A DNA stretch of 64,000 nucleotides from Prorocentrum cordatum (lineage: Eukaryota; Sar; Dinophyceae; Prorocentrales; Prorocentraceae), in the NCBI GenBank assembly GCA_963575745.1, contig CAUYUJ010001413.1, forward strand, positions 37,474 to 101,473, read 5' to 3'. Of this stretch, positions 31,270 to 50,120 are shown in pieces. Position 1 is the first letter of the stretch. The number at the start of each line of letters is the position of its first letter. The notes below the pieces were generated by a model. That model saw only the letters and a program-made list of their open reading frames with translations, had not been told where the DNA came from and did no database searches. The translations under genes and the position numbers were made by a program.

Positions 31270-31555
31270 TATTCCTCCTCCTCCTCCTCCTCCTCCTCCT
31301 CCTCCTCCTCCTCCTCCTCCTCCTTCGCCTCCTCCTCCTCCTCCTTATCCGCCTTCTCCTCCTCCTCCCTCCTCCCTCCTCACTCCGCCCTCCTCCCTCC
31401 TCCCTCCTCCACCCGCCTTCATGCCCGTCCACCACCTCCTCCCTCCTCCCCCCTCCCACCTCCTTCCTCCCTCCTCCCTCCACCTGCTCCTCCTGCTCCT
31501 CCTCCTCCTCCTCTCTTCCTCTCCTCCTCCTCCCTCCTCCTCCTCCTCCTCCTCC

Positions 31556-31609
<54 letters not shown>

Positions 31610-31622
31610 GCAGAGTCATCAT

Positions 31623-31653
<31 letters not shown>

Positions 31654-31859
31654 AGCAGCACCAGCATCATCATCAGCATCATCATCAGAACAGCAGTCAC
31701 AGCCATATCATCATCAGCATCAGCAACATCATCATCATCCACCTCATCATCGTCAGCATCATCAGTAGCATTAGCATCCTCATAATCAGCATCATCACCA
31801 TCATCGTCAGCATCCGCATCATCATCTTTATCAGCATCAACGTCATCATCATCATCATC

Positions 31860-31891
<32 letters not shown>

Positions 31892-32400
31892 CATCACCAC
31901 CATCATCATCATCATCATCATCAGCATCGTCATCATCATCAGCACCATCATCATCCTCAGCATAATCATCAGCATCATCATCATCAGCAGCAGCGGCATC
32001 TGCATCGTCAGCATTATAATCGCCATCATCATCAGCATTACCATCAGCAGCATCACATCAGCATGATCGTCATCAGCATGACCAGCATCGTCATCAGCAT
32101 CATCAGCAGTGCCATCATCATAAGCATCGCCATCGTCATCGTCATCACCACCGTCAGCAAAATCAGTATCACCACCATCAACATAAGCATCACCGTCATC
32201 AACATCATCAGCATCAGCATCAGCATCATCAACATCATCAACATCGGCATAAGCATTACCAGCATCACCAGTACCATCAGCATCATCAGCAGCAGCATCA
32301 GCATCATCAACAGCATCATCAGCATCATCAGCATAATCAATACCATCATTAGCATCGTCATCATCAGCAGCAGCATCGTCGTCCTCCTCTTCGCCCTCGT
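31270..32400. repeat. Long (CCT)n then (ATC)n trinucleotide array
   Basis: About 280 bp of CCT/CTCCTCC repeats pass into about 830 bp of CAT/CAG/ATC repeats with scattered interruptions. All six frames stay open through much of it. It lies just outside the left end of the giant transposon. The remainder to 32596 holds nothing recognisable. Confidence 0.95.
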
Positions 32401-32596
32401 CCTCGTCCTCATCCTCCTCATCCTTCCTGTGCTATTCCTTCCTCTTGCTCTCCCAAATGCTCCCCCATTGGGTTCACAACGGCTCGGGAAACACACAGTC
32501 CAAAAGCTTGGCCAGACATCGGCCAAACGTTTCACCGCATGGGCGTTTCCAAAGGGCAGGGTGCGGCGGTGAATCGTCGTAGGCGTCGTCGACATA

Positions 32597-32700
32597 ATCC
32601 GATAGCCCTTATAACGGCGACGAGGCGACGATCGAAAGCAGTGCCCCGGCACTGCTTTGAACGCGTTCAAAGCAGTGCCCCGGCACTGCTTTGAACGTAT
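32597..32700. repeat. Left terminal inverted repeat of the giant transposon
   Basis: Begins ATCCGATAGCCC after TA (32595-32596). From about 32637 it contains two palindromes built on GTTCAAAGCAGTGCC / GGCACTGCTTTGAAC around the centre ACGCGT (32661-32666). The whole can fold into a cruciform. Confidence 0.85.
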
Positions 32701-32813
32701 GATATGATGATATGATGATGATTATGATTGATGATGATGATGATTTTTCCAGCGTACACTGTCCGCAACTGCGGCAATCAACATCATGCTCCACTTGCCC
32801 GCAACTGCGGCCA

Positions 32814-34760
32814 TCACCAACGCTGCGCCTCGAAGCTCCACGGAGGGCGCTCGGCAGGTCGCCCGCTCGAGCCCCACTCGACTTCACGCTGAGGAGGCGA
32901 GCCCTCAGGGGCATTGTCCGCAACTGCGGCATGATCAGAGGGCCACCACTGCGCGCCATCAGCGCCCCATTCGCTCGAGCTCCAGTCCCACCAGGACCAG
33001 CCCTGCCATCTCTTGGCGGGACTGCGCGCCTCCCATGCGCCGCTGCCGCTGGCGTCCCAGGACCCAGCCGCCACTGCGGCACAAGAAGGGGTCGCATCGT
33101 CGCCGTTGGCAGCTTGCGGCGGTGGCGTGTTCCCAGCTCGCTCAGCCCCAGCGTCTCTCCCCGCAACTGCGGTTCCCATCTGGGGTCGGACGCCCTTCCC
33201 CGCAACTGCGGTGTCCGCGTAGCTGCCCTTCTTGCCGCCCTTCTTGCCGCCCTTCCTGCCGCCCTTCCTGCGTTCCAACCTCGCGGCGAGTCTTTCAGGT
33301 GACCTGCGGCACGTATTGTGCGTGAAAGCCACCAGAGGGAAGTGCGCTCCGTGCCTCGCCCTGCCGAAGGCGCCATGCCATATCTTGTCGTCGAGGTTGC
33401 CCTGCTTCACTCTGAAGGGATAGCGCACCCAATCGTCGCGTTCCCTGCGCGCCATCCTTTGCTCGAACTCCGCATCTGCGGTCAAGGATTCGCCAGATGG
33501 CGTCAGGAAGGCGCGCATCTTGTTTTCAACGGGCTCAGCCTTGGGCACGTAAGTCTGAAGCATCTTCCCAGGGCCATTCGTGTAGTCGAAGACAGGGAAA
33601 GACGGATCATGCTGGGTCGTCAAGAATCCGCCCTCACGGTCGTGCAGAACACTCAGGCCATGGTGAAGCTTGTACTGCCCAGGACAGTTTATGAACAAAA
33701 TCGCCATGCTGTCTGCCCTGGGCTGGCCGCCTGCTGTCTTCCAGGGGGTCCACGCGGCGACGTCCACAGTCAGGCCGCAATTGCGGCACCAGGACACAAG
33801 CTGGAACATGCACATGTTGAAGTCCCCCATGCAGACCTTCACGTCCCATTCCCTGACGTAGGCGACGAACCAGTTGTAGAACTCATGGAGCTTCGTGACG
33901 CCCCAGTCTTGGTTGGCCAAGCTGTGGTGGACGTGCACCGCCATGACGTTGAAGGAGCCCCCCAAATGGGGCACGGCCTGGTCCAGGTGGACGCGCACCA
34001 CCATCGCCCTGGAGTACTTGTTGTGCAGCTTTGGCGCAGGAGCCTCCGCAACTGCGGACTGTTTCTTCTTCTTCTTCGTTTTGGACTTCTCCTGCTTGTG
34101 GAAGAGTCTCGCAAAGTCTACGTGTTCAATGTGGCCGCCACTGCGGTCCCTCATGCCAACAAGGAGGGTCCCTGATGGCTCGCCGCCCTTAACGCACAGG
34201 TAGTTGTATTGAGTCCGACTCCGAAACCTATCGTCCGCAACTGCGGCTGCACTGTCCCTCGCGTCGTGCTCCCCACTGAGTACCGCGCAGGTCTCGTCGT
34301 CGCACTCGCAGAGGGCGATGATCTGGGCAGGGTTCGCGCGGAGCTGCGCCCACTCGTCCGCGCGTTGCGTGGGTCTAGCTGCAGTCCCTCCGAAGTTGGC
34401 CACGTAGAAGCCGACCCGTCCCGCTTCGAACTCCGTTTTCTCCTCCCATGCGTCGACAAGAGCTCTTTGTTTTTCCGACAGATTGCTTGTCTCGATGATG
34501 GGCACCCGTTTCCAGGGTCTCCGCGACGACAACACTCTCGGCATGTAGGAGTCATGTGCTGCCGCAACTGCGGCTCCCGCACCTCCCCGGGACTCAGCCT
34601 CGTCAGCGGAGGCAGCCGAGGACGCGACGGTGCTGTCGCCATCTTGCGTCCGCTGGTCGTCGTCATCATCCGCAACTGCGGCTTCCTCGTCTTTGCCTCC
34701 CTCCTCCTCCTCAGCGTTGTGGATGAACACCGTTCTGGCGAATCGAAGTCCACGGTCCAT
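32814..34760 (-). CDS. Giant transposon gene F: endonuclease/exonuclease/phosphatase-fold protein
   Basis: The start is taken at the ATG at 34760 (MDRGLRFARTVFIHNAEEEE); the frame is open to 34889. An acidic linker is followed by an EEP-like domain: AQIIALCECDDE (catalytic Glu), FNVMAVHVHHSLANQDWG, VKVCMGDFNMCMF (the D-F-N pair) and AHFPLVAFTH where the terminal S-D-H would lie, so the last motif is altered. A Trp-rich tail (GWSWWDWSSSEWGADG) resembles the G/W-rich N-terminal region of gene A. At least ten 12-base hairpins lie in it, read as AVAD, QLR or SCG. It is the last gene of the array. It could be a nuclease used by the element or a cargo phosphatase; the altered end makes catalysis uncertain. 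Confidence 0.65.
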   Translation of the reverse strand: MDRGLRFARTVFIHNAEEEEGGKDEEAAVADDDDDQRTQDGDSTVASSAASADEAESRGGAGAAVAAAHDSYMPRVLSSRRPWKRVPIIETSNLSEKQRALVDAWEEKTEFEAGRVGFYVANFGGTAARPTQRADEWAQLRANPAQIIALCECDDETCAVLSGEHDARDSAAAVADDRFRSRTQYNYLCVKGGEPSGTLLVGMRDRSGGHIEHVDFARLFHKQEKSKTKKKKKQSAVAEAPAPKLHNKYSRAMVVRVHLDQAVPHLGGSFNVMAVHVHHSLANQDWGVTKLHEFYNWFVAYVREWDVKVCMGDFNMCMFQLVSWCRNCGLTVDVAAWTPWKTAGGQPRADSMAILFINCPGQYKLHHGLSVLHDREGGFLTTQHDPSFPVFDYTNGPGKMLQTYVPKAEPVENKMRAFLTPSGESLTADAEFEQRMARRERDDWVRYPFRVKQGNLDDKIWHGAFGRARHGAHFPLVAFTHNTCRRSPERLAARLERRKGGRKGGKKGGKKGSYADTAVAGKGVRPQMGTAVAGRDAGAERAGNTPPPQAANGDDATPSCAAVAAGSWDASGSGAWEARSPAKRWQGWSWWDWSSSEWGADGAQWWPSDHAAVADNAPEGSPPQREVEWGSSGRPAERPPWSFEAQRW

Positions 34761-35126
34761 ACTCCCTGAGGATGCGCTCGGGCGCGCGGGCGGCCACATG
34801 CTTGCGTCTTCGCGTGCGCCACCTCGAGCCACGGTGGCTACGGAAATGGATCGTGAATGGGCATGGGGTCGGATGGAGGGAGGAGACAAAGAGGATTCGA
34901 GGAGTGGCAGAAGGAGGGCGAGGACTCAAAGGAACCGAAAGAACAACAAATGGACTGGCGGAGAAGCAGAAGGAGGGCGACGATTGCAAGGGACTGTGAA
35001 AGGATTATTTTCACAGCAGCAGGAAGACCGCAACTGCGGTTTTGCCTCATCTCCTGCCCGCGCGGGAGCCGCTTGGAAAAACAACTTCCCTCTGGACTTC
35101 CTGTGGGTCCGCAACTGCGGCCTGCA

Positions 35127-38100
35127 TCACGCTAGGGCTGGGATTACCAGCGCCATTTGCCCTCCCAGGGTTCTCACTGTTTCCGAATGCACGAACTGCG
35201 ACAGCGCCGAACGGTTCCCAGACGCCGCGTCGTTCGCGACTTTTTGCAGCCACCCAGCAAACGTGAGCGGCCATTGCTCCTTGTGCTGCTTGCACATCTC
35301 CTCGTCCCAATGCGTCTTGAACCATGCCCACTCCCCCCTCTGCTCGTCTGAGAGGACGCCTTTTCCGCGAGCCAGGCGATCCAGAGCTGCCATCCTGTTT
35401 TTCTTGATCTTGAACTCCTCGGGATTCCACTGCGCTAGGGCGTGTTTGTTAGCCAAAGCCGTTTCCACCGCAACTGCGGCCTCCTTCTTTGCCCTCAAGG
35501 CGGCCTCGGCCTCTCGAATCTGCTTCTTGAGATCGTGCAACGCCTTCGTCCTGTCGTTCGCTTCCAGAGCCAGGCGCCGCTTTTTCGCCACCACTGCGGC
35601 TTCGTGGTCTCGCTGGGCAGTCAACGCTCGTAGGACCTCGTTGTCCTCCCGCGCCAGCTCTCTCAACCGCTTCTTTTGTTTGTGTCGTTGCTGTCGGCAA
35701 TCCTGCGCTAGTTTCTCCATGCCCACTTGGCGCAGCATATCTTCCGCCTCGCGGAGCGTTTCTGCCAAGGACGTCGCCACTGCCACCTGCTCGGCCGCCT
35801 CTGCGTCGACCACGCAGTCCATGGATACCGAGGATCCTTGAGGCCCAGGTGCCGCAACTGCGGCATCGCACTGTTCCGCAAGAGCCTCGGCCCACGAGGC
35901 CTCCTCTTGCTCTTCGTCCTCCTCGTGCTCCTCGTGCACCTCCTCCTCCTCCTCCTCCCCGCCCTCCTCATCGCCCTCCTCGTGGCCTGGCTCCTGGCCT
36001 AGCGCTTCGTCGCCGAGCTTCTCCAACACGGAATCTGTGGCGTCGTGTTTCTCGTATTCGTGTATGAGACGCAGCACGTCATTGTAGGACCATTTCAAAC
36101 GTTTCTGCTCGCATTCTTCCCTCACCTCCGCGACTGCGGTGTCCACTTTTGCTCGCAGCCCCCCTGCTTCCCAGAGTTCCGCCGCCTCTCGGCAAATCTC
36201 GAGATCTCCTGACTTGTCGAAGGGCGCTCGAATTCCCACTTTCAGGAAACCTTTCGCGGCGTCCAAGTGCAACTGCACATTCTCCAACACTGACAGCATC
36301 AAGTCGGCGCAATCGGAACGCCGCAACTGCGGCACGTGCTTCCCCAACGCCATTTGCTGCACCAGCGCTTTGGTCTCGAGGGCAATGTACCGGCGCTTCA
36401 CGTGCTGGTTCAAGTCCGTGTCCACGGGCTGCGCAACTGCGGTCGTCCCCCCGCCGTGAATGATCAGCACGTAGCCGCGCTGCCAGGCGAGTCTCCGCAC
36501 AGCGTCTGCTTTGTGCGGGGAATGGTCGTCGGCCATGAGGATGCGCCACTTTCCCCGCAACTGCGGGTCGTCGGGCCAGGCCCGCAAGTGCCGCTGCAAG
36601 AATGATACAACGTCGTCTGCGCGGTAGGACCCCTTCTCGGACGTCGCCGTGCTCACCCAAGACGGATAGCCGCGACTGCGGGCATGTGCGGCCAAGCCCT
36701 CAGCGATGACAGATCCCCCCTTGAACATTAGCTCCGCCGGCGGTGGTCCGCAACTGCGGATGTCCTCCGCGTCGCTCGACACCGTCAGGTTCGCTGTCCA
36801 CCGAGCCCTGCTGTCGTCATGCGCCTCGACAAGCGGGACAATGCCACCCTTCACAGCCAAGGTCGGCTTCGAGGCCGACGACGACTCGTTGTGGTGAAAG
36901 GGCGACTGGTCCCAGTTCAGGATGTGCGGGTCGTACCCCAGAAGCTCCTCAGCAGCTGCGCGGACCCTGGCCACGTTCAAGATCATAGTCTCAAAACGAG
37001 ATTGGAGCAACCATTTTGGCACCTTGTACTTGCGGTTCGGCTTCTTCATGCTCAGGCCGTAGGAGCGCCGCCACTTCACCCACCACCGAGGCCGCAACTG
37101 CGGCACCATCGGTTTGCCTCCCCGCTTCATTGTCTCCACGCAGTAGTCCGCGACGAGTTGCTTCGCCTTCGTAACCAGCAGGGATTGGGAGAACCTGGCC
37201 AACATCTTGGGCCTCTCCTCCGCAACTGCGGTTCGCTTGGCCACCGCCTTCCAGTCCACGGAGTACCTCATGTGGGACCACCACTCGTACAGAGCGGCTT
37301 CCAGCCATGGAGCCTTGTTCGGGCGCCCTTGGTTGCCCCGCGCGCGGCGTCGGCCATGCACGCCCGCCGTGCCATGTCCACCTTGTGTGCGCCAGTTTTG
37401 AAACCACTTGGAGACGGCCTGGCGCTGCTGGACGACCCCCATGCCCTTCGGCCACGTGAACCGCTCGCAAAAAGACGCGATTGAATTCCGTGGCAGAACG
37501 CCCTCGCCCATCCAACCACAACTGCGTGCGTGCGCCTCCAGGTCTTTGCAAACCAGTTCGCGGTCTCTGAGCATGTGCGGGCACACGCGCCGCTTCTGTT
37601 CCGCAACTTCGGGTTTTGGGCGTGCGCTGGCCAGTGCGTGCGCCCTGATCTGCTCCTCCTGCAACGCCTCGGGCATAGCCTCAGCCATGGCAAGCAATAT
37701 ACCCATGTCCTGCACGCCCGTCTGCCACTCTAACGCCGCCATGAGAGCGGGGCGTGGCGCGCTCGCCTCTCTCGGCGCCTCTGCTGGTTCGCCCTCGCCC
37801 TCGGAGTCGTGCAGGACCATGGGTCCAGCAGGGCCGCTGGCCCCGCAACTGCGGTACGCCCGCACCTCCTCCAAGGTTAGTTCCTGCGTGACAACGAGCA
37901 TGTCGTGCAACCACGGTTCGTCCCAGCGGCGCACCCCGAAATCGTACAGTTCCTCCCGAAGCCATTTGCGCGTCTCGGCATTTTGCGGTTTCTGCAACAT
38001 CATCGCCATAAGGTCAATGCCGCAGTTTCCATCGCAAACAGTCCCTAGGACCCATTGTCCCAGAGGACCGTAGAACCTGTTCAACGCGTCCGCCCCCTCA

Positions 38101-39242
38101 GAGCACACGCCACCCACCGCAACTGCGGCCACCCAGTGGCGCACCTCATGGAGAGGGTTCTCGGGAGTCACGGGCCTGAGTTCCACCGTTGTCCATTCCC
38201 CGAACAGATCCTCAGCAGCGGCGAGTACGCACGCCACGCCGTCGACGGCGCATGGCTCAGTGCACTTCTCCTTTGCCCAAGGCATGTAGAAGTCAAGGAG
38301 GTCCTTGCGGTTCTCGCCTTCCCACACGTAAGGTTGACGCCCGAACCGCAAGGCAAACAGCATGAAAGCTGAATACCCTATGTAGGAATTCTCGGACAGA
38401 ATCTGCCTCAGGAGAGCCATCACGACGTCAGGCACCGTCGCCGCCACTGCGGCCTGGATCTTTGGCGCGTCTTCCACAGGTACACCTTTCTCTGGCGCCA
38501 GGGGTGGCGCCGCGACTCGTGGCCGCAAGGCGTCGCCAACAGGCGCCGCAACTCGTGCTGCAGCCTTTGGGTCTGGGCACGGGAAGAATGCGACCTGCGT
38601 CTTCGACCAGTTCTCTGGCAGCGGCCGCGCTGGTGGCAAGCGTGCTGGAAGTGGTGTGTCTTTGTCCGCTTCCACTCCCTCAGGAGCTTCAACCGCAATT
38701 GCGGTCTCCTGCGCAGCAGGCGGGTCTGGTGTTGCGTGCACTTGAGCTGGAGGAGCTGGAGGGACTGCTGCTGCGGGTGCTTCGGGCACAGGGGCTGCTG
38801 GAGGTTTGGGTTCTGCGGGTGCTTCTGGTGCTGGAGCTGCGTGTCCTTCTTGCGCAGGAGCTGCGAGTTCTGCTGGTGTTGCTGGTGCTATGTGTGCAGG
38901 GGCCGAGGGAGCCGCAACTGCGGTGCCGCCTGGAGCCGCAACTGCGGGTGGTGGCGTCGCGCCCGGTCGCCAAGCAGACGGCCGCAAATGAAAGCGAGGC
39001 GGCTCAACAAGGCCGTACTGCGACGCGGGCCACTTCGCTAGGCACGGAAAATCCGCACATGCGTGCACCTTTATCTTCTTGGGGCACGGAACGCCGCTAC
39101 TGCGGCCCAAGATGTTGGCGAGCCCAGTGGTGCCATACTTCGTTTTCCTCGGTGCGCAGCCGCTGTCGTAATGGAGCCACTCCACCTCGAAATGCGTTCC
39201 GTCCTCCTCGCCATACCATGTCCGCCCCACGGGAACATCCAT
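35127..39242 (-). CDS. Giant transposon gene E: pogo/CENP-B-like DDD transposase with long N- and C-terminal extensions
   Basis: A 1371-residue uninterrupted frame starting ATG (MDVPVGRTWYGEEDG). Residues 1-300 include an Ala/Pro-rich linker. About 320-450 carry HWVAAVAVGG and GTVCDGNCGIDLMAMMLQ, a cysteine-protease-like (OTU-like) D-G-N-C pattern. A CENP-B-type helix-turn-helix lies near 680-740 (WWVKWRRSYGLSMKKPNRKY). The catalytic core has HILNWDQSPFHHNESS (D about 777), RILMADDHSPHKADAV (D about 905) and TTAVAQPVDTDLNQHVKRR (D about 940), a D...D34D arrangement as in pogo/mariner. The C-terminal 250 residues form an acidic stretch and a probable coiled coil. It should cut and join the element's TIRs in the nucleus. 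Most pogo transposases are about 500 residues, so this one is unusually large. Confidence 0.85.
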   Translation of the reverse strand: MDVPVGRTWYGEEDGTHFEVEWLHYDSGCAPRKTKYGTTGLANILGRSSGVPCPKKIKVHACADFPCLAKWPASQYGLVEPPRFHLRPSAWRPGATPPPAVAAPGGTAVAAPSAPAHIAPATPAELAAPAQEGHAAPAPEAPAEPKPPAAPVPEAPAAAVPPAPPAQVHATPDPPAAQETAIAVEAPEGVEADKDTPLPARLPPARPLPENWSKTQVAFFPCPDPKAAARVAAPVGDALRPRVAAPPLAPEKGVPVEDAPKIQAAVAATVPDVVMALLRQILSENSYIGYSAFMLFALRFGRQPYVWEGENRKDLLDFYMPWAKEKCTEPCAVDGVACVLAAAEDLFGEWTTVELRPVTPENPLHEVRHWVAAVAVGGVCSEGADALNRFYGPLGQWVLGTVCDGNCGIDLMAMMLQKPQNAETRKWLREELYDFGVRRWDEPWLHDMLVVTQELTLEEVRAYRSCGASGPAGPMVLHDSEGEGEPAEAPREASAPRPALMAALEWQTGVQDMGILLAMAEAMPEALQEEQIRAHALASARPKPEVAEQKRRVCPHMLRDRELVCKDLEAHARSCGWMGEGVLPRNSIASFCERFTWPKGMGVVQQRQAVSKWFQNWRTQGGHGTAGVHGRRRARGNQGRPNKAPWLEAALYEWWSHMRYSVDWKAVAKRTAVAEERPKMLARFSQSLLVTKAKQLVADYCVETMKRGGKPMVPQLRPRWWVKWRRSYGLSMKKPNRKYKVPKWLLQSRFETMILNVARVRAAAEELLGYDPHILNWDQSPFHHNESSSASKPTLAVKGGIVPLVEAHDDSRARWTANLTVSSDAEDIRSCGPPPAELMFKGGSVIAEGLAAHARSRGYPSWVSTATSEKGSYRADDVVSFLQRHLRAWPDDPQLRGKWRILMADDHSPHKADAVRRLAWQRGYVLIIHGGGTTAVAQPVDTDLNQHVKRRYIALETKALVQQMALGKHVPQLRRSDCADLMLSVLENVQLHLDAAKGFLKVGIRAPFDKSGDLEICREAAELWEAGGLRAKVDTAVAEVREECEQKRLKWSYNDVLRLIHEYEKHDATDSVLEKLGDEALGQEPGHEEGDEEGGEEEEEEVHEEHEEDEEQEEASWAEALAEQCDAAVAAPGPQGSSVSMDCVVDAEAAEQVAVATSLAETLREAEDMLRQVGMEKLAQDCRQQRHKQKKRLRELAREDNEVLRALTAQRDHEAAVVAKKRRLALEANDRTKALHDLKKQIREAEAALRAKKEAAVAVETALANKHALAQWNPEEFKIKKNRMAALDRLARGKGVLSDEQRGEWAWFKTHWDEEMCKQHKEQWPLTFAGWLQKVANDAASGNRSALSQFVHSETVRTLGGQMALVIPALA

Positions 39243-39469
39243 GAGCGGTCGCGTGGCGAACGACTCGGGCCGGGCACTCGGCTGCGGGCTACAGAACTAG
39301 GAAGAGGGAGGGGAGGAGGGAGGAGCAACTGAAGACGATGCGGAGGGGCGAAGAAGGAGGTACATTTCAACAACGCCCGCGCGGAAGCCCCAATCATCGC
39401 GCGCACAGGGTTTCGATGCTTCACTCCATGCTTCTCTAAGAAAAACGCTCGCCCACACAAGTTGGCGCA

Positions 39470-40614
39470 CTAAGGCGTGCACCCGTGGAACACCCTAAAC
39501 CTTCCGCCTGCCTCCTCACACCGCCTCGCCCTCCGCGTGTTCACGCGCACCCAGCCACCCCGCAACTGCGGGCACTCAGTAGCCCCACCGCAACTGCGGC
39601 CCATACGGCTTCGGGCCTCAGTCGAACAGACTGGGATTTGGAGCTCGAGGTAATCCAGAGCCGCTTGCTTGCGCTGGTGCTGCGTCATGCCCTCCCACTC
39701 GTAGTCGTAGCCCTTCACCGACTGCGCCGACTGCCACTTCTTCTTTGTAAGTTTCTTCACATCCATCTCGATCCTTTTGCCCTTGTTGGCACACTCTCGC
39801 GTGATGGTCGCGACCCAAGCGCCCTTGAAGTCCCAAACGACGGTGAAGCCAGAGCCGCTCCCCTGCGCCACGGGGGAGTCGACCTCCTTTTGCTTCGCCA
39901 GCGGGGTGGCAGGGTCAACCGCCGTTGCCCAGTCCCTGTCCGCCACTGCGGCCTCGCCTTGTCGCCGTCGTCGATGTCGGGGACACCGCCGAGGCTCACG
40001 TCGTCCACGATCATGTCGATCAGCCACCCAAGGTCTGCAGCGTCCAGCCACAACGTCCTCCGCTTGAAGCTGGCCACCCGCACGTTTCGAACGGCCGTGT
40101 CGTGCGGAAACTTCATGGGGCTCTTTGCGGGCATCTGTACGGAGTGCACAGTGGCTATGGCCGACTCCACGGCCTCGCCCCTGGGCAGGCCAGTAGTCGC
40201 CGCACGCGTTCCAGTCTTCTGCTTCTTGGCGCTGGTCGGGGTCGCTGCCTGCTTCTTCGTGGCGTCCGTGGAGCTGACCAGGGCCGACATGGGGTCATCT
40301 GCTTCGTCCCCCGCGTCGCCGTCGCTCTCCTCGTCCGCAACTGCGGCGCCGCCCTGCTTCGCGAGTTCTTTCTTCAGCGCGTCCCAGGCCTTGGAGGCCT
40401 TCAAGGCCCCTGCGGTCGGTTTACCTTTGGCGCACACCTTGAGCAGCCAAGCCTTTTGCATGTTCACGTGCACGAAGCTTATCTCTCCGAGGGGCCCTGC
40501 GTGGAGCACCTTGACATCCTTTTCGGGGATGGGGGTGGTCTGCGCAAGCCAACCTCCACGGATGCACAAGACCTTCTCAACGCACACAGGGCTCCATTCG
40601 CTCGAAGTCGGCAT
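39470..40614 (-). CDS. Giant transposon gene D: unrecognised protein, one frameshift
   Basis: The start is taken at the ATG at 40614 (MPTSSEWSPVCVEKVLCIRG); upstream the frame is open only through a minisatellite. Features: KDVKVLHAGPLGEISFVHVN, a Lys-rich linker (KKQAATPTSAKKQK), RTLWLDAADLGWLIDMIVDD, then a switch of frame near 39950 to FTVVWDFKGAWVATITREC and YEWEGMTQHQRKQAALDYLE before a stop near 39470. The switch falls directly beside a hairpin copy (39940-39951). A shift of one base, or a very short intron, is required. No family recognised. It precedes the transposase and may be co-transcribed with it. Confidence 0.55.
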
Positions 40615-40752
40615 GTGTGCTACTGCGCTGGACACAGCCGCAACTGCGGGCAAGGCGGAGGTGCGGGCAGTGGGGCCGCGCGCGGTTGAGCCAGATGGCG
40701 AGACGAACGCCTCCCTGGAGGGCCTCCCTCGGTCCCTGCGATCCTCCGCGCC

Positions 40753-40880
40753 TCCCTGGAGGGCCTCCGCCCTCAGATGCTTCAAAGCAGTGCCGGGGCA
40801 CTGCTTTGAAGCACCTGGGTGCTTCAAAGCAGTGCCGCGGCACTGCTTTGAAGCATTCTGAGGGCGGAGGCCCTCCAGGG
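40753..40880. repeat. 128-bp nested palindrome at the centre of the giant transposon
   Basis: Two TGCTTCAAAGCAGTGCC palindromes lie side by side around the centre GCACCTGGGTGC (40811-40822). Outside them, CCCTGGAGGGCCTCCGCCCT is mirrored by its reverse complement, so the whole is one long inverted repeat with smaller ones nested in it. The same GTGCC-type palindromes form the inner half of both TIRs. Confidence 0.85.
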
Positions 40881-41037
40881 CCTCCGCCCTCAGCCCAGGG
40901 CCCTCCAGGCCCTCCAGGGCCTCCAGGGAGGCCCTCCAGGGCCTCCAGGGCCTCCAGGGAGGCCCTCCAGGGCCTCCAGGGCCCTCCAGGCCCTCCAGGG
41001 CGGAGGCCCTCCAGGGCCTCCAGGGAGGGAGGGAGGG
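40862..41037. repeat. GGGCCTCCAGG minisatellite
   Basis: Tandem CCTCCAGGG/CCCTCCAGGC phrases of 9-12 bp next to the central palindrome. The translated frame (LEGLEGP) is an artefact and was excluded from gene D. The region 41040-41344 contains purine-rich DNA and hairpin copies only. Confidence 0.85.
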
Positions 41038-41344
41038 AGTGAGGAAATGAGTAGTTTCGGCTTCCAACTTGGGAGGAAGGGGAGAAAGGAGGAGGAGAGA
41101 GGGAGGAAGTGGAGGAAGGGCGAGGGAGGAGAGGGAGAAGGGAGGGAGGAGGTCCGTTTCGAACCTCCGTGCTCGATCGTCAGCGGTCCGCTACTGCGGC
41201 ATCAGCTAACAGAAGCAGTGACACTGCAAAGTACACGAGCGCTCCGCAACAGCGGTCACGCGTGCGCCCCCCCCTTCGGCCTGTTGCCCGCAACTGCGGT
41301 CACGCGAGCAAGCCGCCCTGACTGCCGCCACTGCGGCTTCTTAA

Positions 41345-43796
41345 TTAGAGCGACATCTTCCCGCTTTCGTCGAACCCTTTCTTCGATTTCTTCGGCGCGG
41401 GCTGGCCCGAAGGCTTCCCTTTGGCCCTCTTGGCCGCGTCCGTCTTCCACGTCTCCTCGGCCGCCTTCTTCTTCGGTGCGGTTTTGGGTCTCGCCTCCCA
41501 CAGGAGCTCTTCTCCTTTCTTCACGGCCGTGGTATTCACCAGCACAGGGACATTCACGGCGAGCACGACCCCGCCTGTCCCAGGCACGCACACCGCCAAT
41601 TCTTTCGTCTCCAGCTCCATGTTGATGCGCGCAACTGCGCTTTCATTACGGCTGTTTCTCTGCTGGATCTCCTGTTCCGTGACTCTGTTGACTGCCCAGA
41701 AGACGTGCATTGTCTCTTGCGCATCCCACTTCCATGCTCTCAACCGCACATCGTGGTCAGCCACGTCGGCGGGCGTCTTGTCCGCAGGCGGCTTGAACTC
41801 GGGGTGCAAGTAGAAGGTCGTGGGCGTGGCCCCATTTGGATCTCCTTTCACCCAGACTTGCACGGCCACCCTCTCGGGGTGCGTGCTTGCGGCGTGCACC
41901 TTGGATGCCTTTGGGACGCACGGCCACAACTCGATGCATTTTTCGTCGTTTGCAGCGGTTGCCTTGACGGTGCGTTTCTCTGTGTCAGCGTCTTGCAACA
42001 CCTCTACTTGCGCTTCCGCAACTGCGGACATGTGGCGCGCCCAAAGGCACAGCAACACTGCGCTGACCAAAGCAGGCTCCCGCCCCAGCTCCTTCGCTGC
42101 CGCTGAACGCCTCCATTCGGCGATTGGCAAAGGGAAGGATCCGCGTGGAATGGCCGTCGTGTCCCTGCTGCGCTGGTGGTTCGTTGGTAATTGCGTCGTG
42201 GGGTCAAAGGAAATGACCGTCGGCATCAACTCGTGCCCCTCTGCGGAAGCCTTTGTCTTCCCCGCCACTGCGGGCTCATTCGGTTCTGGGCGCGGCAACG
42301 CGTTGAAATCGAACCAATCGGGCTTCCCGCCTCCGACTCCCACTTCGCCGAGGGCCTTCTCAAGGGCGTCCCGATTGGACTTCGGCTCCACCTTCCCCGT
42401 GGCCTCCGCGCAAGCGCGGAGGAGCGCCTGACGATGTCCTGGGATACTTCGTTCCTTGACGTGGGTGTCCTTCAGGTACTGCATGAAGCCGTCTGCGGTC
42501 AGTATGCACAGGTTCGCCTTGAACTCGATCGCCTTCTCAGGGCCCATGCCGTCGATGGCCTTGCTCAGCGTGAACAAGTACAAACGGAGAGCCGAGTTCA
42601 TGTCGATGAGGAAGTCTCGGAACTCCTTCTTCTTCCACGATTGTTCTGGGTCAGGGCACCACACAGGAGTGTCAACGCCCCTCTTCCTCGCAGGCGCGTT
42701 CCTGTAGCATCGCATCACCACGGCAACCTTGACCCACGGCACTTCGTCGGGAAGCTCGCTGGCTGCCCCGAAGGCACCGAGCCGAAGGGCCCTTCTCCTG
42801 GAGTTCACGTAGACCTCGCAGAACTGGAGCAGCAAGGGGATGAACTGCGCTTTCGTGCTCCCGAGCCCAACAACGAACGAGAACAGCTCAATGAAGTCTG
42901 GGTCCTGAACGACTCGATCGAGTTCGTGCATGACGGAGAGCTTGACCTTGTCAAAGGCAACCTGATCCGCAACTGCGGCGTGCAGCTCCGCGTCAACAGC
43001 CTTGCACAGAACACGGAGCGCGGTGAGTTCAGTCGTTCGCAACGCAAAATCGGCTCCCTTTATTGAGGGACTGGCTGATGAGCGAAGCACCAGTGGGTTC
43101 CTCGTCCATGATTTTCCAGCTAAGCACTTCCATGAGCATACCCCCCTGCACGAGTTTCTTAGCGACAGGGTCATGTTCCGCCACTGCGGCCATGTCGAGA
43201 TTGCCGTCCTTATCGAGCACGCGCTTCAGCCTCGCGCTCTCGTCCTCCGTGAACTCCATGCCTTGGGGGATGGGCCACTTGGCTCCCAGGGCGCACGCCC
43301 GCAACACGAGGCACAAGTGGGAGTGCGAACACGTCCCATACGCAACGTCTGTTCCGCAACTGCGGTCGAAGCACGCAGCGAGGTGGCCGGTCGCTTTTTC
43401 CAGATTGTACTCTGTGTACGTCTGGAACGTCGGGTCCTCCTTTTTTCTCAGCACCAGCTCTTGTGCTGGGTACATCTGAACGCAGACACCTTCGTGGTCA
43501 GCTTCGGCTTGCGTGAATCCAGCCAGGAAGATTTTCACAGCGAGTTCCCGAACCCTTTCCTGCTGAGGGTAGTGCCCGCCTCGGTTGCCCGTGTGCGGGG
43601 CGAGCATGAGCACAGGGAGGCGCACCTTGTCCCCTGTCCTGAATCTAGACCTCAAGGCGTTGGCCCTCTGAAAGATCCCTTGCGTTCCGCCTGGAACTGC
43701 GGCTGTCTCGTCCGCCACTGCGGCTTTCTTGTCCGCCACTGCGGCATTATCTGTGCCGACGCTGTCGTTCATATCTGTGCCGACGCTGTCCGCCAC
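41345..43796 (-). CDS. Giant transposon gene C: unrecognised protein, one frameshift
   Basis: The upstream frame begins with ATG at 43796 (MADSVGTDMNDSVGTDN), with three hairpin copies in its first 30 codons (read AVADKK, AVADET). It contains RTGDKVRLPVLMLAPHTG and CSHSHLCLVLRACALGAKW. Near 43065, at LISQSLNKG, the frame must move by one base (AATAAAGGGAGCC) to continue ADFALRTTELTALRVL to the stop at 41345. The second part holds LIDMNSALRLYLFTLSKAID and FYLHPEFKPPADKTPADVAD, then a Lys-rich tail (AKRAKGKPSGQPAPKKSKKG) that looks like a nuclear or nucleic-acid-binding extension. Total about 815 residues. No family recognised; no transmembrane segment. Confidence 0.6.
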
Positions 43797-43920
43797 TGCG
43801 GCCCGGAGCTCCGATATGGCGGACTATGGCACGACGTCCGTCGCTCAGGGTGGAGGCGTGTGTGCCAGGAGCCCAACGACCTGCTGAGCCGAATGCCTGC
43901 GGACGACTGAAGGCTCAGTT

Positions 43921-44280
43921 TTAATCCAAAATATCGGGCGAGAGCTTGGGGGGGGCGCAGGCTGGAGGAGGGAGGGGGGTGCAAGCTGGAGGAGAACGAG
44001 GAGGGGAAGGGGAAGGACAGCTAGGACGGAAGTGGCGGGGGGATGCGGCCTGGAGGAGGACGAGGAGGGAGGAGGGAGGAGGGAGGAGGGAGGAGGGAGG
44101 AGGGAGGAGGGAGGAGGGACGACGACGACGACGACTGCTGACGACAGACGACAGACTTGACGACGACGACGACCGACGACGACTGCTGACGACAGACGAC
44201 AGACGCGACGACGACGACGGCAGCGACGACGACGAGGACGGACGACGACGATGATGATGACCCAGCGCGCGCACACTTAT
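43921..44280. repeat. GGAGGA and GACGAC low-complexity array between genes B and C
   Basis: Repeated GGAGGAGGGA from about 44056 to 44116, then GACGACGAC with two near-identical GACTGCTGACGACAGACGAC phrases (about 44133 and 44180). No gene. Several hairpin copies follow at 44326-44503. Confidence 0.85.
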
Positions 44281-44480
44281 TGCAAACTGCGGCTTCGCAA
44301 CCGCGTGCTCTCCTATTATACGCAACCGCAACTGCGGCTTCGCAACCGCAACCCCGCAACTGCGGGCTATCCTACACCGCAACATGCACTCCATCGCTAA
44401 TGGGATGCACTACGCAGGCAGCAGGCGCCCAGTAGTACCGAGTTCTGTTCCGCAACTGCGGCTCCTCGGTCTTGCCGCAC

Positions 44481-46306
44481 TCACCGCTCGTCCGCAACTG
44501 CGGCAGATCGCGCCTCTTCGTGCTTCCGCTTGCTCGCCCGACTCTGGCGTCCGTGGCCGACGAAGACGACGTTTTGGTGGATGCCCTCGCACCAGTGCGT
44601 GCTGAAGGTCTTCTCGTTGAGCTCCTTCTGAATGACCTTGCCGATTGGGGGCAGCGCTGCCAAGCCGAGCTTTCTTCTGACTCCGCTACTGCGGTCAGGG
44701 TCATCCTCCCACTTGGGCATGTACTTCGCTGGGACCCAGCGCCGAGAGATGATGGAGTCGCTTGTTCGATGCATCCAATCAGGGAGCCACTGGGGATCGT
44801 TCTTCGACGGCCTCCCTGCATAATCCGTGTTGTAGTCCGCAATGCGCACGTCGCACGGGCCAATGGGGAGGACGTAATTCGGATGCAGGACGCGTGTGCC
44901 CTCCACAAGGCCTCCGAACAGGGCGGGTCCAGCCCTGAGCACCACCCCCATCGGGCAGGTGTAGCTGGCTCCGCAACTGCGGCCAAATGCTTGGAGCTGC
45001 TCAGGCGGGATGTCAAACAGGCCGCACAAGAACCGCACATCATTTTTATGGATGGAAGCAACCGCGTCCTTGAAGAAACTTGGATGCCACGCTGTTTGTT
45101 CTGATTGCGTGATCTTCTGTTGGAGACGTTCGGTGACTGCGTGTCTGGACACGACGGCAAAACGGATCACCGCGGCAGGATTCATGTCGGAGCCCTTCAG
45201 GCGAAAGCGCAGGATCGTGACGGCGTGGGTGGCCCCAACAACATGACCCGCAACTGCGGTCTCTGCGATGATGTGCGGGCGCACGAGCACCACGCCCGTG
45301 TCTCTGAACAGGCCAACCGTCGTCCAGTAAGGCTCCGCGGTGTTGTTTTTCAAAGTGACAGCGTCTTCGACGGCAGTCCTGAGTCCACGGGAACGTCGTA
45401 GCTGCAAGCGCCTTCGACGTTCCCCGTGCGGAACAGCTCGGGGTCCCATACGACGAAGACGACCGCCGCAGTTTGGTGCAAGATGCACCTGAAGACATCT
45501 TCCTTTGTTGCCACCTTCGTGATGACCACCACGTTGAACACCAAAGCGATGGTGGACGGAACCCGATTGCCGTCTGCTGTACGAAGGAATCCTTCGTTCC
45601 ACTTGGGGCGTTCCCCAACGTAGTTTATCCCTGGAGGGGACCTGGTCCGCTGCTTCTTCCGCGGTGCTCCCGCATCTTCCCGCAACTGCGGTTCCGACGG
45701 AGGCCCCGCGCGACCCCGCGACTGCGGTTCTGACAGCGGCGAGCCTTCCGTGGGAGGCGGCCTTTTCCTCGGCCGCGAATCGGCCGAGGCGATTGTCTCG
45801 GCGGCTTTCTCCTGGGAGGCGGCCTCGTCTTCGGGTTGGGCGCCTCGTTTGGACTCGGCTGCGAGCAGCACGGCCGAGGGCGCGCTGCTCCCAGATGAGC
45901 CGCGCGCGGCACCTTGCTCGCCGGCCACCCCCGCAACTGCGGTCTCGGTGGCGGCTCCCGTCACTGCTGGTTGGTCCTGCTGCTTCGTCGGCGTCTGCGC
46001 CCGAGGCCCCCATTTTGCCTTGGGGGTCAAGTGCGCCCTGCGCAACTGCGCCTCTTCGCGCCTCCCACCAGCAGAGCTCCCACTCGCAGCGCCTATCGGC
46101 GGCGGCGGCCGATATTCCCGCGAGGAGCTAGACGACTGCGGGGAGGCCTCGCGCGGCGGTCGCTCGTGGCTTCCGCAACTGCGGTCCTCCGTCGGCTCCG
46201 CGACTGCGGCATCCGCGGCAGCCCCTTGCAGGCCGAACCTTTCCCGCAGTTGCTGCTTCAGCTCGGCGAACCGCGTGTCGACCTCGGCTTTGCGACCTGG
46301 GTCCAT
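44481..46306 (-). CDS. Giant transposon gene B: unrecognised protein with disordered N-terminus, one frameshift
   Basis: The start is taken at the ATG at 46306 (MDPGRKAEVDTRFAELKQQL); the frame is open further upstream but through GC-rich repeats. The first about 210 residues are Ser/Pro/Arg/Glu-rich and disordered. A folded part begins near INYVGERPKWNEGFLRTADG and continues DVFRCILHQTAAVVFVVWDP. Near 45390 the frame must shift by one base to continue AVEDAVTLKNNTAEPYWTTV, GVVLVRPHIIAETAVAGHVV and YVLPIGPCDVRIADYNTDY, ending at 44481. A Lys/Arg-rich tail (RQSRASKRKHEEARS) closes it. About ten hairpin copies are present. Family not recognised. Confidence 0.6.
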
Positions 46307-46559
46307 GGCGTGGCCGCGCGCGGCCCCCGTCCGACGGGGGAACTGCGGCCGGCTTGGGAGAGGAAGGACAACGAGGGAGACGGCGGGGATGAGGACGAGG
46401 AAGGCGAAGAGGAGGATGGAGAGGACGCGACGGAAGAGGATGGCGCGCACAGCGCTGCGGGCGCGGCGCTCTGCGGCGTCCGCCACGCGGTCGCAGCAAC
46501 CATCCTGCGATGGGTGCGGCGGCGCGTCGGGCGGCGCCGCCCCCGCCGAGCACAAGGCG

Positions 46560-47529
46560 GTGGCGGCGCGCGCCTCGACGGCGACGCCTGGCTGCTACAA
46601 CCCGGGCGGATGTGGGTGGGGCGAAACGCGCCCACAGGAAGATGGGCGCCCCGCCTGCCGCAACCAATTATGGAACCTGCGAGCGGCAAGGCTGGTCGGC
46701 GCCGCGGACGGGTCGCGCGCGCTCCCTCCGCGGCGGCCTAGCCGCCACGCATGACTGTTCCTGTGCGCGGCAAGGCTGGCCGGTGCCGCGGTGAACGCTC
46801 GCGTGCGCTCCCTCCGCGGCGACCTATCCGCGGCGCATCCGACAAAACCGCGGCTCCATCTTTCTCGCGTTTCGCGTGTCGTCGCCTCGCGGCGAAGCGC
46901 CCCTCGCAACCTCACGCGCTCGCTGCGGGGCGCGCGGACGCACGCGCATCGCGTCCTCGCTGCTGTGCCCGCGAGACAGCATTCGTGCCTCGGCTGTTCG
47001 CTCACAAGAGCTCAGACGAGGGTGAAAGGAGCAAGGGGACTGCGACGAGGATGACGGGGCAGAAACGGAGGAGGAGGAATCAACAAAGTCCGCAACTGCG
47101 GCCCTAGGGGGGGACTGCGACGAGGACGACGGGAAATGACTCGGCCAACGGAGGCGGGCTACGGCCAACGGAAGGAACTGCGACGAGGAGGAAAGGCGGA
47201 GGGAGGAGACTGCGACGAGGACTACGGGGAAGGGGCGACGAGGACGACGAACAACTGCGGATCCATCTGTTTAAGTACCTGTCTCCGCAACTGCGGCCGC
47301 GCTAATTAACGTCACGAGTGCTTCAACGGAGGCGATGCGCGCCCGAAGCACCTAATTACAGCGGTCAGTCGTGGGAGCGCCGCAACTGCGGCCAAGCTGT
47401 ATGAAGTCGCTAGAAGGCAGCGCCGCAACTGCGGCCGAAAGCGCGCATAGTTAGTCAAACGAGCGCGGCGTCACGCGATCGGTCCCCGCAACTGCGGTTC
47501 CATGGCTGCGCAATCCCGCAACTGCGGTG
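46560..47529. other. Intergenic region between genes A and B with short tandem repeats
   Basis: A GGCAAGGCTGG...CCGCGG phrase with CTCCCTCCGCGGCG is duplicated about 86-97 bp apart (46685 and 46771). From 47035 to 47260, GACTGCGACGAGGA phrases repeat. Six hairpin copies lie at 47090-47527, in the same direction as those in genes. No gene is recognised; the promoter of gene B should lie here. Confidence 0.5.
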
Positions 47530-48900
47530 TCAAGGCTGCGCGGACCACCGCGGTTGAAGATGCGCCCCCTTGCTCGCGTCGAACCGCCCAGGATTCGGAT
47601 GGGCGTGCAGCATCTTCCAGAACGTGAACGTTCCGTGGCCATCGCTCTTGCCGAGACCTGCCCTCGGGCCCCGCACGGGATGCGAGTGCGGCTCCACCTC
47701 ATACGTGTTAAACTTCGGGCTAGACCAGGATGGGTGGACGCGAATGCCCGAGCCGTCGTCGCGGATGAGGACGAAATCCCACTGGGGCAGAGGGATTCTT
47801 TGCGCCTGTCCTCTGTCCACCCCTTTCGTGTGCCTCATGTTGTCGAGACTGCTAGGGCACGGGCGACACTCGCAGCGGACCAACCCGCGACTGCGGTCAT
47901 TGTCAGGGCCGCACACGACGCGCAGCATTGTAGGTCCATCCATCTGCGCGACCATCTCCAGCCAAGACCACGGCACTTTGACAGTGTGGTCCCAGTCCCA
48001 ATCCCTGTTGTCCTGCGCCTTCCCCTTTGCGCTGTACTTAAGGATCTTCGAAATTTCCTCCGCAACTGCGGTACCTCCGAAGACGGGCGTGCGGCTGCCG
48101 AAAGGGTTTTCTCGGTCTTCGTACTCGTCTCGGAACCACTTCAAGGCCGCGTTGTGCTGCTTATACTTGCCGTTCCAGTTCGCCCTGAAGTTCTCGAAGA
48201 ATTCCAACTTGAAAATTGGCAGCGGCTCATTGCGCACAATTTGAAACAGCGCAACTGCGCCTTGTTCTTCGCGCCCTGGGGGAAGCAGGGGACCGCCTCC
48301 TTTGCCCTCCGCTGTTGCGGCCGCGGGCTCCGCGGCAGGAGAACCTGCCGAGGCACTCGAGCGGCCACCTTCCCATGCATTCCACCAGCCACCCTCGTCG
48401 TCCCACCAGCGGGCGCCCTCCATTCCCCACCCCTCGCATCCGTTGCCGCCCCATCCGCCGCCCTCCCATCCGCGACTGCGGTCACTTCCGTCGCCGCCAT
48501 CCTGCGCTTTTCCTCTCAATCCGCCAAGAGAATCTCCGCCGCCCCAGCCGCCACTGCGGTCACCTCCGCCGCCGTATCCGCCACTGCGGCCGCCCCAACC
48601 CCCACTTGTTCCCCAACCGCCGACGCTGCTCTTTGAAGAATCCGCAACTGCGGCCCGTGTTTCCTCTTCCGCTTTGTCATCCCACCCTGCACGCATCTCT
48701 GCCCCGACTGCAGGCCGCGGAGGCGGGCGCGAGCCCGCCCAACCGCCGTGAAACCTACCGTCGGCGCGGGCTTGAGCCGAACGTGCAGGGAGGAGGAGGA
48801 TGAGGAGGAGGAGGGTGAATGTGAGGAGGATGATGCGTTCCTGGGAGGTGTGCCTTCGCGTGCAACACAAGAGCCCTGAGAATTCCTGAGGCCCCTCCAA
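47530..48900 (-). CDS. Giant transposon gene A: Gly/Trp-rich protein with unrecognised C-terminal domain
   Basis: First gene of the array. The frame is open from 48900. A first methionine there is followed by a Leu-rich hydrophobic stretch (LTFTLLLLILLLPARSAQA) that would be a signal peptide if translated; an internal ATG at 48696 (MRAGWDDKAEEETRAA) would omit it. Then comes a Gly/Trp/Asp-rich segment with GGWGTSGGWGGRSGGYGGGG, reminiscent of RGG-type RNA-binding regions. A folded part follows with LPIFKLEFFENFRANWNGKY, WSWLEMVAQMDGPTMLRVVC and WDFVLIRDDGSGIRVHPSW. At least seven hairpin copies are embedded. The frame is uninterrupted. No family recognised; an RNA-related role is a guess from composition. 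Confidence 0.55.
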   Translation of the reverse strand: MEGPQEFSGLLCCTRRHTSQERIILLTFTLLLLILLLPARSAQARADGRFHGGWAGSRPPPRPAVGAEMRAGWDDKAEEETRAAVADSSKSSVGGWGTSGGWGGRSGGYGGGGDRSGGWGGGDSLGGLRGKAQDGGDGSDRSRGWEGGGWGGNGCEGWGMEGARWWDDEGGWWNAWEGGRSSASAGSPAAEPAAATAEGKGGGPLLPPGREEQGAVALFQIVRNEPLPIFKLEFFENFRANWNGKYKQHNAALKWFRDEYEDRENPFGSRTPVFGGTAVAEEISKILKYSAKGKAQDNRDWDWDHTVKVPWSWLEMVAQMDGPTMLRVVCGPDNDRSRGLVRCECRPCPSSLDNMRHTKGVDRGQAQRIPLPQWDFVLIRDDGSGIRVHPSWSSPKFNTYEVEPHSHPVRGPRAGLGKSDGHGTFTFWKMLHAHPNPGRFDASKGAHLQPRWSAQP

Positions 48901-49470
48901 CAGCCAAGGACGCGGATGACAAGAAAGTCGAGAAGATTGGGAACCGATTGAGGATTAAGAGGCGTGCGACGAAAGGGATGTTGATGACGAAGAGGAAGAT
49001 CAGTGAAGGGGAGGAGCGGACAGGAATTATGGAGGAGTGATAGCAGAGGAGGAAGAGGGGGAAGGGGGAGGAGGAGGAGGAGGAGGAGGGAGAGTAAAAG
49101 GGGAAGGAGGAGGAGGAAGAAGGGAAGGAGGAGAGAGGATGAGGAGGAGGAAGAAGAGGAGGAGGAGGATGAGGAGGGGGGAGGAGGGGAAGAGGAGGAG
49201 GACGACGACGACGAGAGGAAGGAGGCGGAAGGAAGTGAGAAGGAGGACAAGGACGGAGAAATATAACAAATGAGGGGGAGGAGGCGGAGGAGGAGGAGGA
49301 CGAGGAGGAGAAGCAGGAAGAGGAGGAGGAGAGGGGGGAGGAAGAGTGCGCGTGAGACTGGGAGACCGAGGTAATTAATTAGAGAGGGAACGGGGGAGGA
49401 GGGAGGACAAGGAAGAGCATACAGCGACGAGAAGAGGAGAAGGAACAGACGAAGGCTCCTGCTGATCGCA
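48901..49470. repeat. Purine-rich (GGA)n region inside the right end of the giant transposon
   Basis: GAGGAGGA with AAGAGGAGG and GACGACGAC interruptions from about 49035 to 49340. All frames are low complexity. No hairpin copies occur here. The promoter of gene A would be expected in this interval, but no element is recognisable. Confidence 0.85.
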
Positions 49471-49480
49471 TTTCCGCATC

Positions 49481-49580
49481 GTTCAAAGCAGTGCCGGGGC
49501 ACTGCTTTGTACGACTGGTGATGTTCAAAGCAGTTCCCCGGCACTGTGTTCCATCGTCGCCGTTATAAGGGCTATCGGAT
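49481..49580. repeat. Right terminal inverted repeat of the giant transposon
   Basis: On the reverse strand it starts ATCCGATAGCCC next to TA (49581-49582) and continues through GCGACGATGG into two GTTCAAAGCAGTGCC palindromes (about 49481-49512 and 49522-49548), the second imperfect. It lacks a 7-bp segment present in the left copy. Confidence 0.85.
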
Positions 49581-49582
49581 TA

Positions 49583-50120
49583 ACGCTCGAGGGTCCCACC
49601 CCTACACCCCGCCGCAGAAAGACCCCGCCGCAGAATAGCTAGGAGCAGGAGTCGGCATAACTGTCCGCCCACCACTGCCGCCCCTGGCAAGGCTAGGATG
49701 TAACATGCACGCCACTTAATTTTACAACAAAGCACAGTACAATTAAGAAGGGTCGCAATATTTGTCTTGACCGCCGCGCCCACCCGGCCCCGCCCCGAGG
49801 TGCGCGCGCGGGAAGAGGGCAGCTGCATGGCTGGGAAACGGCGTGAACATCGGAGGTGAGGGGGTGAGATCGAAGTGGAACGGAGAGCCCCCCTGCCGGG
49901 AAATCGGTTTCGGTTTCGTGTTCGTGCGTGCCGTGCGCGAAGCTGCGTGGGCGGGCGGAAGGAAAGTCTCCTGTGGCTGAGGCGTGGCCAAACCAAATAA
50001 TCCCCTTCCGGCAACTGGTGCCGCGCGGTGCGCCGCCGGCGTCCCGCCTCTGGCAGAGGCGCGGCCGGACCAAATGATTCCCTTCGGGCGTCAGGTGCCG
50101 CGCGGTGCCCCGTCGGTGTC
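49583..50120. other. No secure gene; short tandem duplication
   Basis: GC-rich DNA to the right of the giant transposon. A segment of about 78 bp is duplicated at its end: CCAAATAATCCCCTTCCGGC (near 49991) and CCAAATGATTCCCTTCGGGC (near 50070) are each followed by GGTGCCGCGCGGTGC. Minus-strand frames are open but have no recognisable motif. Confidence 0.5.

Follow-up and report, generated by a model that had tools for sequence, protein, structure and literature searches.

A dense, one-orientation 12-base motif in the genes of a giant pogo/mariner-like transposon of Prorocentrum cordatum, a possible transcript self-tag

The window, that is, the whole stretch analysed, comprises 64,000 nucleotides of Prorocentrum cordatum DNA (assembly GCA_963575745.1, contig CAUYUJ010001413.1, positions 37,474 to 101,473, forward strand). 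It holds a 17.0-kb element with genes g1 to g6, which we place among the pogo/mariner-like giant transposons. Every assigned gene of the element reads on the minus strand of the window. A 12-base motif is scattered through the element in a single orientation. Its consensus is CCGCAGTNGCGG on the coding strand of the element (window minus strand) and CCGCNACTGCGG on the plus strand. The motif is interpreted as a selected self-tag of the transcripts of this transposon family, carried in gene bodies and 3' regions; the probability of this interpretation is put at about 0.5.

Identity, number and strand of the motif

Sequences with no more than one mismatch to CCGCAACTGCGG number 79 in the window (0.82 expected from shuffles; largest shuffle 4). 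All are located at 32763–48653 except a single outlier at 53020. Minus-strand matches make up 4 of the 78: two are self-palindromic CCGCAATTGCGG, also counted on the plus strand, and two are lone one-mismatch copies. Exact copies are 68, all on the plus strand as CCGC[N]ACTGCGG and all within the element. No exact copy is present on the opposite strand of the element or on either strand of the remaining 47 kb of the window, where one-mismatch copies number three and three on the two strands. The first-pass annotation had reported about one copy per 225 bp, facing one way and confined to a transposon bounded by terminal inverted repeats (TIRs). Density (mean spacing 237 bp, 0.03 exact copies per shuffle), polarity (68 sense, 0 antisense) and, within the window, confinement all hold. 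The observation is confirmed as real, and is sharper than it was described.

On the coding strand, copies in the element with 0, 1, 2, 3 and 4 mismatches number 68, 7, 12, 54 and 246, against means of 0.03, 0.7, 6.4, 49 and 246 in 60 shuffles. The peak is thus nearly without a tail, and the chance level is reached by three mismatches. The seven one-mismatch copies are changed at six different positions, at most two per position. The freely varying letter is position 5 of the plus strand, position 8 of the coding strand and position 4 of the loop (T 47, G 12, C 6, A 3). Loop positions 1–3 are nearly fixed. The term palindrome, applied earlier to the whole motif, is correct for the arms CCGC and GCGG, which pair, and not for the middle AGTN (coding strand), which is asymmetric. 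Flanks of the sites are without conservation, apart from a mild bias at the adjoining positions, and share no longer repeat.

Perfect 4-bp stems around AGTN are found 72 times in the element: 68 CCGC, 3 GCGC and 1 GTGC. In the three GCGC copies (GCGCAGTTGCGC; 0.018 expected) both outer bases are swapped; a half-swapped outer pair occurs in one copy. The array at 32763–48653 (minus strand) is composed of 68 exact CCGCAGTNGCGG, three GCGCAGTTGCGC and seven one-mismatch copies. A symmetric DNA dimer site was considered and rejected, being opposed by free position 8 against nearly fixed position 5 and by the 68 : 0 polarity.

Placement of the sites along the element

Listed open reading frames (ORFs) contain 49 of the 68 sites, in phases 0, 1 and 2 at 4, 31 and 14 (labels 1 and 2 are placeholders; three sites in two overlapping ORFs are assigned to the first). 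The other 19 lie in no listed ORF, in agreement with the earlier statement that all coding phases and the spacers are used. Two of them, near 39560–39588, fit a frame continuing g4, and part of the 19 probably lie in coding sequence past frameshifts. Sites outside ORFs keep the same polarity; the motif therefore does not arise as a side effect of codons.

Of the 16 sites in the five internal intergenic stretches, 15 are in the half nearest the stop of the upstream gene, on average 0.21 of the way from that stop and at the farthest 0.54 (Kolmogorov–Smirnov p 5e-4, the sites not being fully independent). No site is found in the 682 bp that precede the first gene. The 214-bp tail after the last gene contains two. 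Given the intergenic skew and the empty 682 bp, the sites keep to gene bodies and 3' ends and stay clear of probable promoters.

Imprint of the motif in related transposases

Evidence from the family is at the protein level. The family set consists of 121 proteins: 120 of the 126 found with the catalytic region, and P0004. They were obtained by three protein searches, each of which scored only the approximately 8,000 candidates that had the most words in common with the query. Peptides expected from the three frames are PQ[LSW]R, [SPTA]AVA[VADEG] and RS[CGSR]G. In the 121 transposases (141,891 residues) RSCG occurs 52 times (0.9 per permuted peptide), RSGG 47 (2.4), RSSG 19 (2.5), PQLR 22 (0.9) and PQSR 26 (1.0). 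AVA occurs 945 times, 730 times with both codon-block flanks (NCN before, GNN after). RSRG was left out of the count, as two conserved columns hold 116 of the 129 occurrences listed with the window protein included. With RSRG excluded, the count is 904 for sense and 56 for antisense peptides. Per 1000 residues the AVA form reaches 5.1 in the family, 0.27 in ORFs of the remainder of the window and 0.12 in ORFs of 44 viral loci, which were chosen for the motif and are rich in its antisense form, ATA. The first-pass annotation had named absence from other copies of the element as grounds for refutation; the translated motif is instead strongly enriched in these relatives.

When RSRG is counted, a protein has a median of 8 sites; with or without it, three of the 121 proteins have none. 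The 904 sites are spread over 231 alignment columns, 132 of which are occupied in one protein only. Sites were therefore probably gained many times, although loose linker alignment may inflate the number of single-protein columns. Tag-bearing relatives reach down to about 33% identity with the window transposase. No correlation with a GC proxy was found (r 0.04).

In a FastTree phylogeny rooted on P0121, clade A has the 59 sequences closer to the window protein (itself included), clade B 58, and the other 5 of 122 are outside both. Phase use (AVA : RS : PQ) is 246 : 100 : 54 in clade A and 488 : 13 : 5 in clade B. Clade B (58 proteins, P0061 to P0103 on the tree) has many tag peptides, almost all in the AVA phase. 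The peptide counts suggest a shift almost wholly to the phase that is probably cheapest for the protein, or else a peptide-level signal. No clear alternative motif was found in frames 1 and 3 of clade B, where conserved RSRG columns and low-complexity peptides push the values up. In P0009, AVA and RS sites of the AGTN type are lacking, and two AIA and three RNCG are present. A loop variant, CCGC-AATT-GCGG, is possible in P0009, P0010 and P0115, judging from AIA and RN-type peptides. The most distant members (P0117, P0118, P0120, P0121) have 0–2 sites each.

Three protein scans of viral contigs gave no relative. These contigs contain 44 stretches with two motifs 6–36 bases apart, each stretch with 2–8 motifs; several of the eight stretches shown resemble short tandem repeats. 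Genome contigs gave one remote relative (JAIXPV010000615.1; 26% identity, 42% GC, no exact tag). Its 3.2-kb contig, from a bacterial metagenome-assembled genome, is probably a stray eukaryotic contig.

Gain, loss and retention of sites

In directed homologue pairs of 75–85% identity, 207 of 257 sites are kept, 44 are substituted and 6 overlap a gap; some events are counted twice, P0001 and the window protein being near-duplicates. Among the 44 substituted sites, 23 are at least one base change and 11 at least two base changes from the motif. Gap overlaps rise with distance, to 57 of 729 sites at 65–75% and 648 of 5755 at 55–65% identity. Because gap-free changes dominate the close pairs, sites come and go mainly via point mutation. 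This does not bear out the likeness to Rickettsia palindromic elements that had been drawn from the sequence. An inserted mini-element of that type is disfavoured and scarcely credible. Twelve bases would preserve the frame, the copies are near-identical, and gaps do fall on a minor share of the changed sites (6 of 50 at 75–85%, 648 of 2555 at 55–65% identity); against this stand the 44 of 50 changed sites without a gap at 75–85% identity and flanks that have no longer repeat in common.

Retention of AVA, the only phase compared, was set against that of tripeptides matched for local identity. It is 0.84 versus 0.61 at 80–98% identity (24 of 24 pairs, 92 sites), 0.81 versus 0.38 at 70–80% (60 of 60 pairs, 443 sites), 0.70 versus 0.23 at 60–70% (60 of 274 pairs, 349 sites), 0.53 versus 0.15 at 50–60% (60 of 1680 pairs, 384 sites) and 0.28 versus 0.08 at 40–50% (60 of 3893 pairs, 286 sites). 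Below 80% identity AVA sites are thus kept 2–4 times better than matched tripeptides, a figure that convergent gain, if repeated, could raise. Retention of the motif thus exceeds that of its surroundings, and the tag sites look selected.

Nature of the tag

In transcripts the tag would act by forming a stem-loop of 12 nt, CCGC-AGUN-GCGG, with several copies in each message. It would be read by an RNA-binding factor, most likely encoded by the element. Such a factor would separate messages of the element from those of the host, so that the former are shielded from RNA silencing or decay, or are exported or translated preferentially. Being sense-only and multi-copy, the tag would serve any transcribed gene and would tolerate loss of any single copy. 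An RNA tag is favoured because independently gained sites, also outside ORFs, all face one way, because the territory of the sites looks transcript-like, and because the stem changes as a pair in the window (three GCGC...GCGC copies, one half-swapped). A free loop position 4 next to nearly fixed positions 1–3 is not predicted by a symmetric DNA dimer. The four loop versions, taken alone, fold as a hairpin (about -5 kcal/mol). The more specific proposal, an RNA self-barcode read by a protein of the element, possibly with g1, rich in tryptophan–glycine (WG/GW) dipeptides, acting on Argonaute, is tentative.

Several points weigh against an RNA tag. The hairpin gains nothing from its native flanks (median probability 0.12, against 0.10 for random implants, p 0.53); shuffling the flanks gives 0.22, the antisense hairpin reaches 0.32 (paired p 0.03, in the wrong direction), and the antisense 12-mer alone folds equally well. 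Since the letters of the stem scarcely vary, whatever is read goes beyond pairing. The swapped outer pair is barely echoed in homologues (RSC followed by Ala 0 of 59, by Gly 52 of 59). The 3' and 5' regions are defined from ORF ends, not from mapped transcripts. Searches with the proteins of the element identified no reader protein. In clade B, confined almost to the AVA frame, a peptide-level cause is possible. One orientation alone is no proof of RNA, since VANC21 DNA motifs also face one way (available excerpt of PMC5735166).

A less likely explanation is an oriented DNA tag of the VANC/VANDAL type, in which a protein of the element would bind the duplex motif along the element, either clearing silencing marks or marking chromatin. 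Motifs of VANC21 are likewise short, densely placed, restricted to their element and of the same orientation (PMC5735166, excerpt). A DNA site would fit the sharp, exact consensus, the test of hairpin context for RNA came out null, and 34-bp palindromes at both ends and in the centre of the element have GCAGT in common with the tag. The motifs described in that excerpt are, however, mainly non-coding and spread by tandem repeats, whereas 49 of the 68 sites are here in ORFs and change is mainly by substitution. Independently gained sites would be expected both ways unless strand matters, and 68 of 68 face one way. Spacings of the sites show no helical phasing, and no site precedes the first gene.

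Function would not be needed under a mutational ratchet, in which strand-specific, transcription-linked repair or editing turns near-matches into the motif. The near absence of a tail (68 exact copies, 7 with one mismatch, background by three) is in its favour, 23 of the 44 substituted homologue sites could be one base from the motif, and a ratchet of methylation-directed repair without selection has been proposed for HIP1 (PMC4390886, excerpt). It is nevertheless improbable: in the window a single element is affected and the other 47 kb have no exact copy, eleven fixed letters are a long target for a repair bias, and the uneven phases (4/31/14) suggest that selection at the protein level filters the sites. 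Selection of a short peptide such as AVA, with the DNA motif following, would explain the 488 of 506 clade B sites in the AVA frame. It is very improbable as a general cause, as clade A uses three unrelated peptides (246 : 100 : 54), 19 of the 68 window sites are outside listed ORFs, and 730 of 945 AVA match the codon blocks.

The element and its genes

The giant Tc1/mariner-like (pogo-like) element occupies 32597–49580 (minus strand), with TA read from the sequence at both flanks (32595–32596 and 49581–49582). The left TIR core, CCGATAGCCCTTATAACGGCGACGA, is at 32599–32623 (plus strand) and its inverted copy, the right TIR core, at 49554–49578 (minus strand); each is 25 bp with 0 mismatches. 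Near-perfect 34-bp palindromes of the TTCAAAGCAGTGCC/GGCACTGCTTTGAA type (repeat family D20) are present as a pair at the left end (32630–32697), as two more copies near the middle (40779–40854) and as two weaker copies at the right end (49480–49555). Microsatellites are present in the surroundings of the element. Trinucleotide arrays just outside the TIRs, (CAT)n at 31266–32400 on the left and (GAT)n at 50118–50900 on the right, are mutually inverted.

All gene positions are from the ORF list, minus strand. g1 (47530–48900) encodes 456 aa and has 6 tag sites and 14 WG/GW dipeptides, all within the first 175 residues. In a viral silencing suppressor, Argonaute is bound through WG/GW motifs (PMC2904775, available excerpt); for g1 this is only a resemblance. 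g2 (44481–46555) consists of overlapping frames 44481–46013 and 45350–46555, the first Met of the second being near 46306, and has 9 tag sites. g3 (41345–43796) consists of overlapping frames 41345–43174 and 43029–43796 and has 7. g4 (39757–41067) has 3 in the listed ORF and, by eye, extends in another frame to about 39555 past a frameshift near 39955. The overlapping or shifted frames of g2, g3 and g4 suggest frameshifts, via sequencing error or decay. g5 (35127–39242) is the predicted transposase, of 1371 aa, with 15 exact tag sites. g6 (32814–34889) encodes 691 aa with a W-rich C terminus and has 9 tag sites; a GDFN motif seen by eye makes it a possible EEP-type nuclease. The predicted fold of part of g6 is unusable (predicted local distance difference test, pLDDT, 32). 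PDB sequence search gave no useful match for g6, g3 or the transposase profile.

Classification of the transposase is based on homologues and on a model of P0001, a near-identical relative of g5 (99.6% identity over 1116 residues). The model was built with 56 sequences (mean pLDDT 79.4, predicted template-modelling score 0.51). All four Foldseek matches at E <= 0.001 are Mos1 mariner transposase (best 1.1e-4, at a template-modelling score to the target of about 0.35) and the top 11 are all mariner- or Sleeping Beauty-type, with low template-modelling scores to the target (0.32–0.51) and large root-mean-square deviation. Asp523, Asp650 and Asp686 (P0001 numbering) are invariant across the 56-sequence alignment. 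g5 itself matches Pfam DDE_1 at E 0.093, below the family cut-off. At E <= 0.5, HTH_psq is found in 4 of 28 homologues (best 0.0056) and HTH_Tnp_Tc5 in 2 of 28 (best 0.0016), neither in the window protein. TIRs, a TA target duplication and a predicted mariner-fold DDE/D transposase are thus present, as in Tc1/mariner elements. At residues about 401–430 of g5, DGNCGIDLM is presumably similar to the catalytic-Cys motif of OTU proteases.

Elsewhere in the window, minus-strand ORFs at 2412–5462 and 21150–22814 give matches to RNase H / zf-RVT and to reverse transcriptase that fall short of the curated cut-offs, and are probably LINE-like (long interspersed nuclear element) retroelements. With these matches and the microsatellites, the surroundings of the element have a eukaryotic look. 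Rfam gave 0 matches on the window at gathering scores.

Comparison with known systems and significance

Rickettsia palindromic elements, insertions of about 100–150 bp, resemble the tag as palindromic sequence in-frame inside many genes; the tag differs in being 12 bases made mainly by substitution. DNA uptake sequences of Neisseria and Pasteurellaceae are bacterial 10–12-bp self-labels, found in both orientations and often in terminators. They are alike in that a motif is kept at many sites as a self-label, and unlike in that the tag is in a eukaryotic-type transposon and in one orientation. HIP1, which occurs inside genes, is likewise a dense, short, GC-rich palindrome. Its sequence, GCGATCGC, is symmetric, genome-wide and tied to methyltransferases (PMC4390886, excerpt), whereas the tag has an asymmetric AGTN core, is polarised 68 : 0 and, in the window, is element-confined; the comparison with HIP1 made earlier stands for density only. 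No methyltransferase is among the Pfam matches of the ORFs of the element.

AGUN is within the NGNN loop class read by the yeast RNase III Rnt1p, cleavage by which is reported to need the first 5 base pairs (PMC4334505, available excerpt). As in Rnt1p AGNN-tetraloop stem-loops, the coding strand gives an AGUN-capped stem (AGTN in 68 of 68) that folds alone. Unlike in those substrates, the stem is 4 bp (the next pair is Watson–Crick in 18 of 68), copies number dozens per element and the flanks are unfavourable. No RNase III was found among the ORFs of the element. The likeness may serve as a lead, not as membership. VANC/VANDAL21 of Arabidopsis has in common with the tag a dense short motif in one orientation within a single transposon family (here, within this window). 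VANC motifs are bound as double-stranded DNA (PMC5735166, excerpt). The tag differs in occupying all phases of coding sequence as well as 3' regions, in changing mainly by substitution and in having no shared flanks. Searches for the exact motif strings returned, in the records available, only papers with unrelated titles.

In open-licence literature no described match was found for a one-orientation motif kept in coding sequence by selection, and this would hold even with a reader acting on DNA. If the proposed interpretation is true, a selfish element puts labels throughout its own transcripts, at a cost that shows in its proteins, and does so across a family. Self and host nucleic acid would then be distinguished in a manner hitherto unknown, and an RNA (or DNA) tag would be available ready-made, whose reader could be sought.

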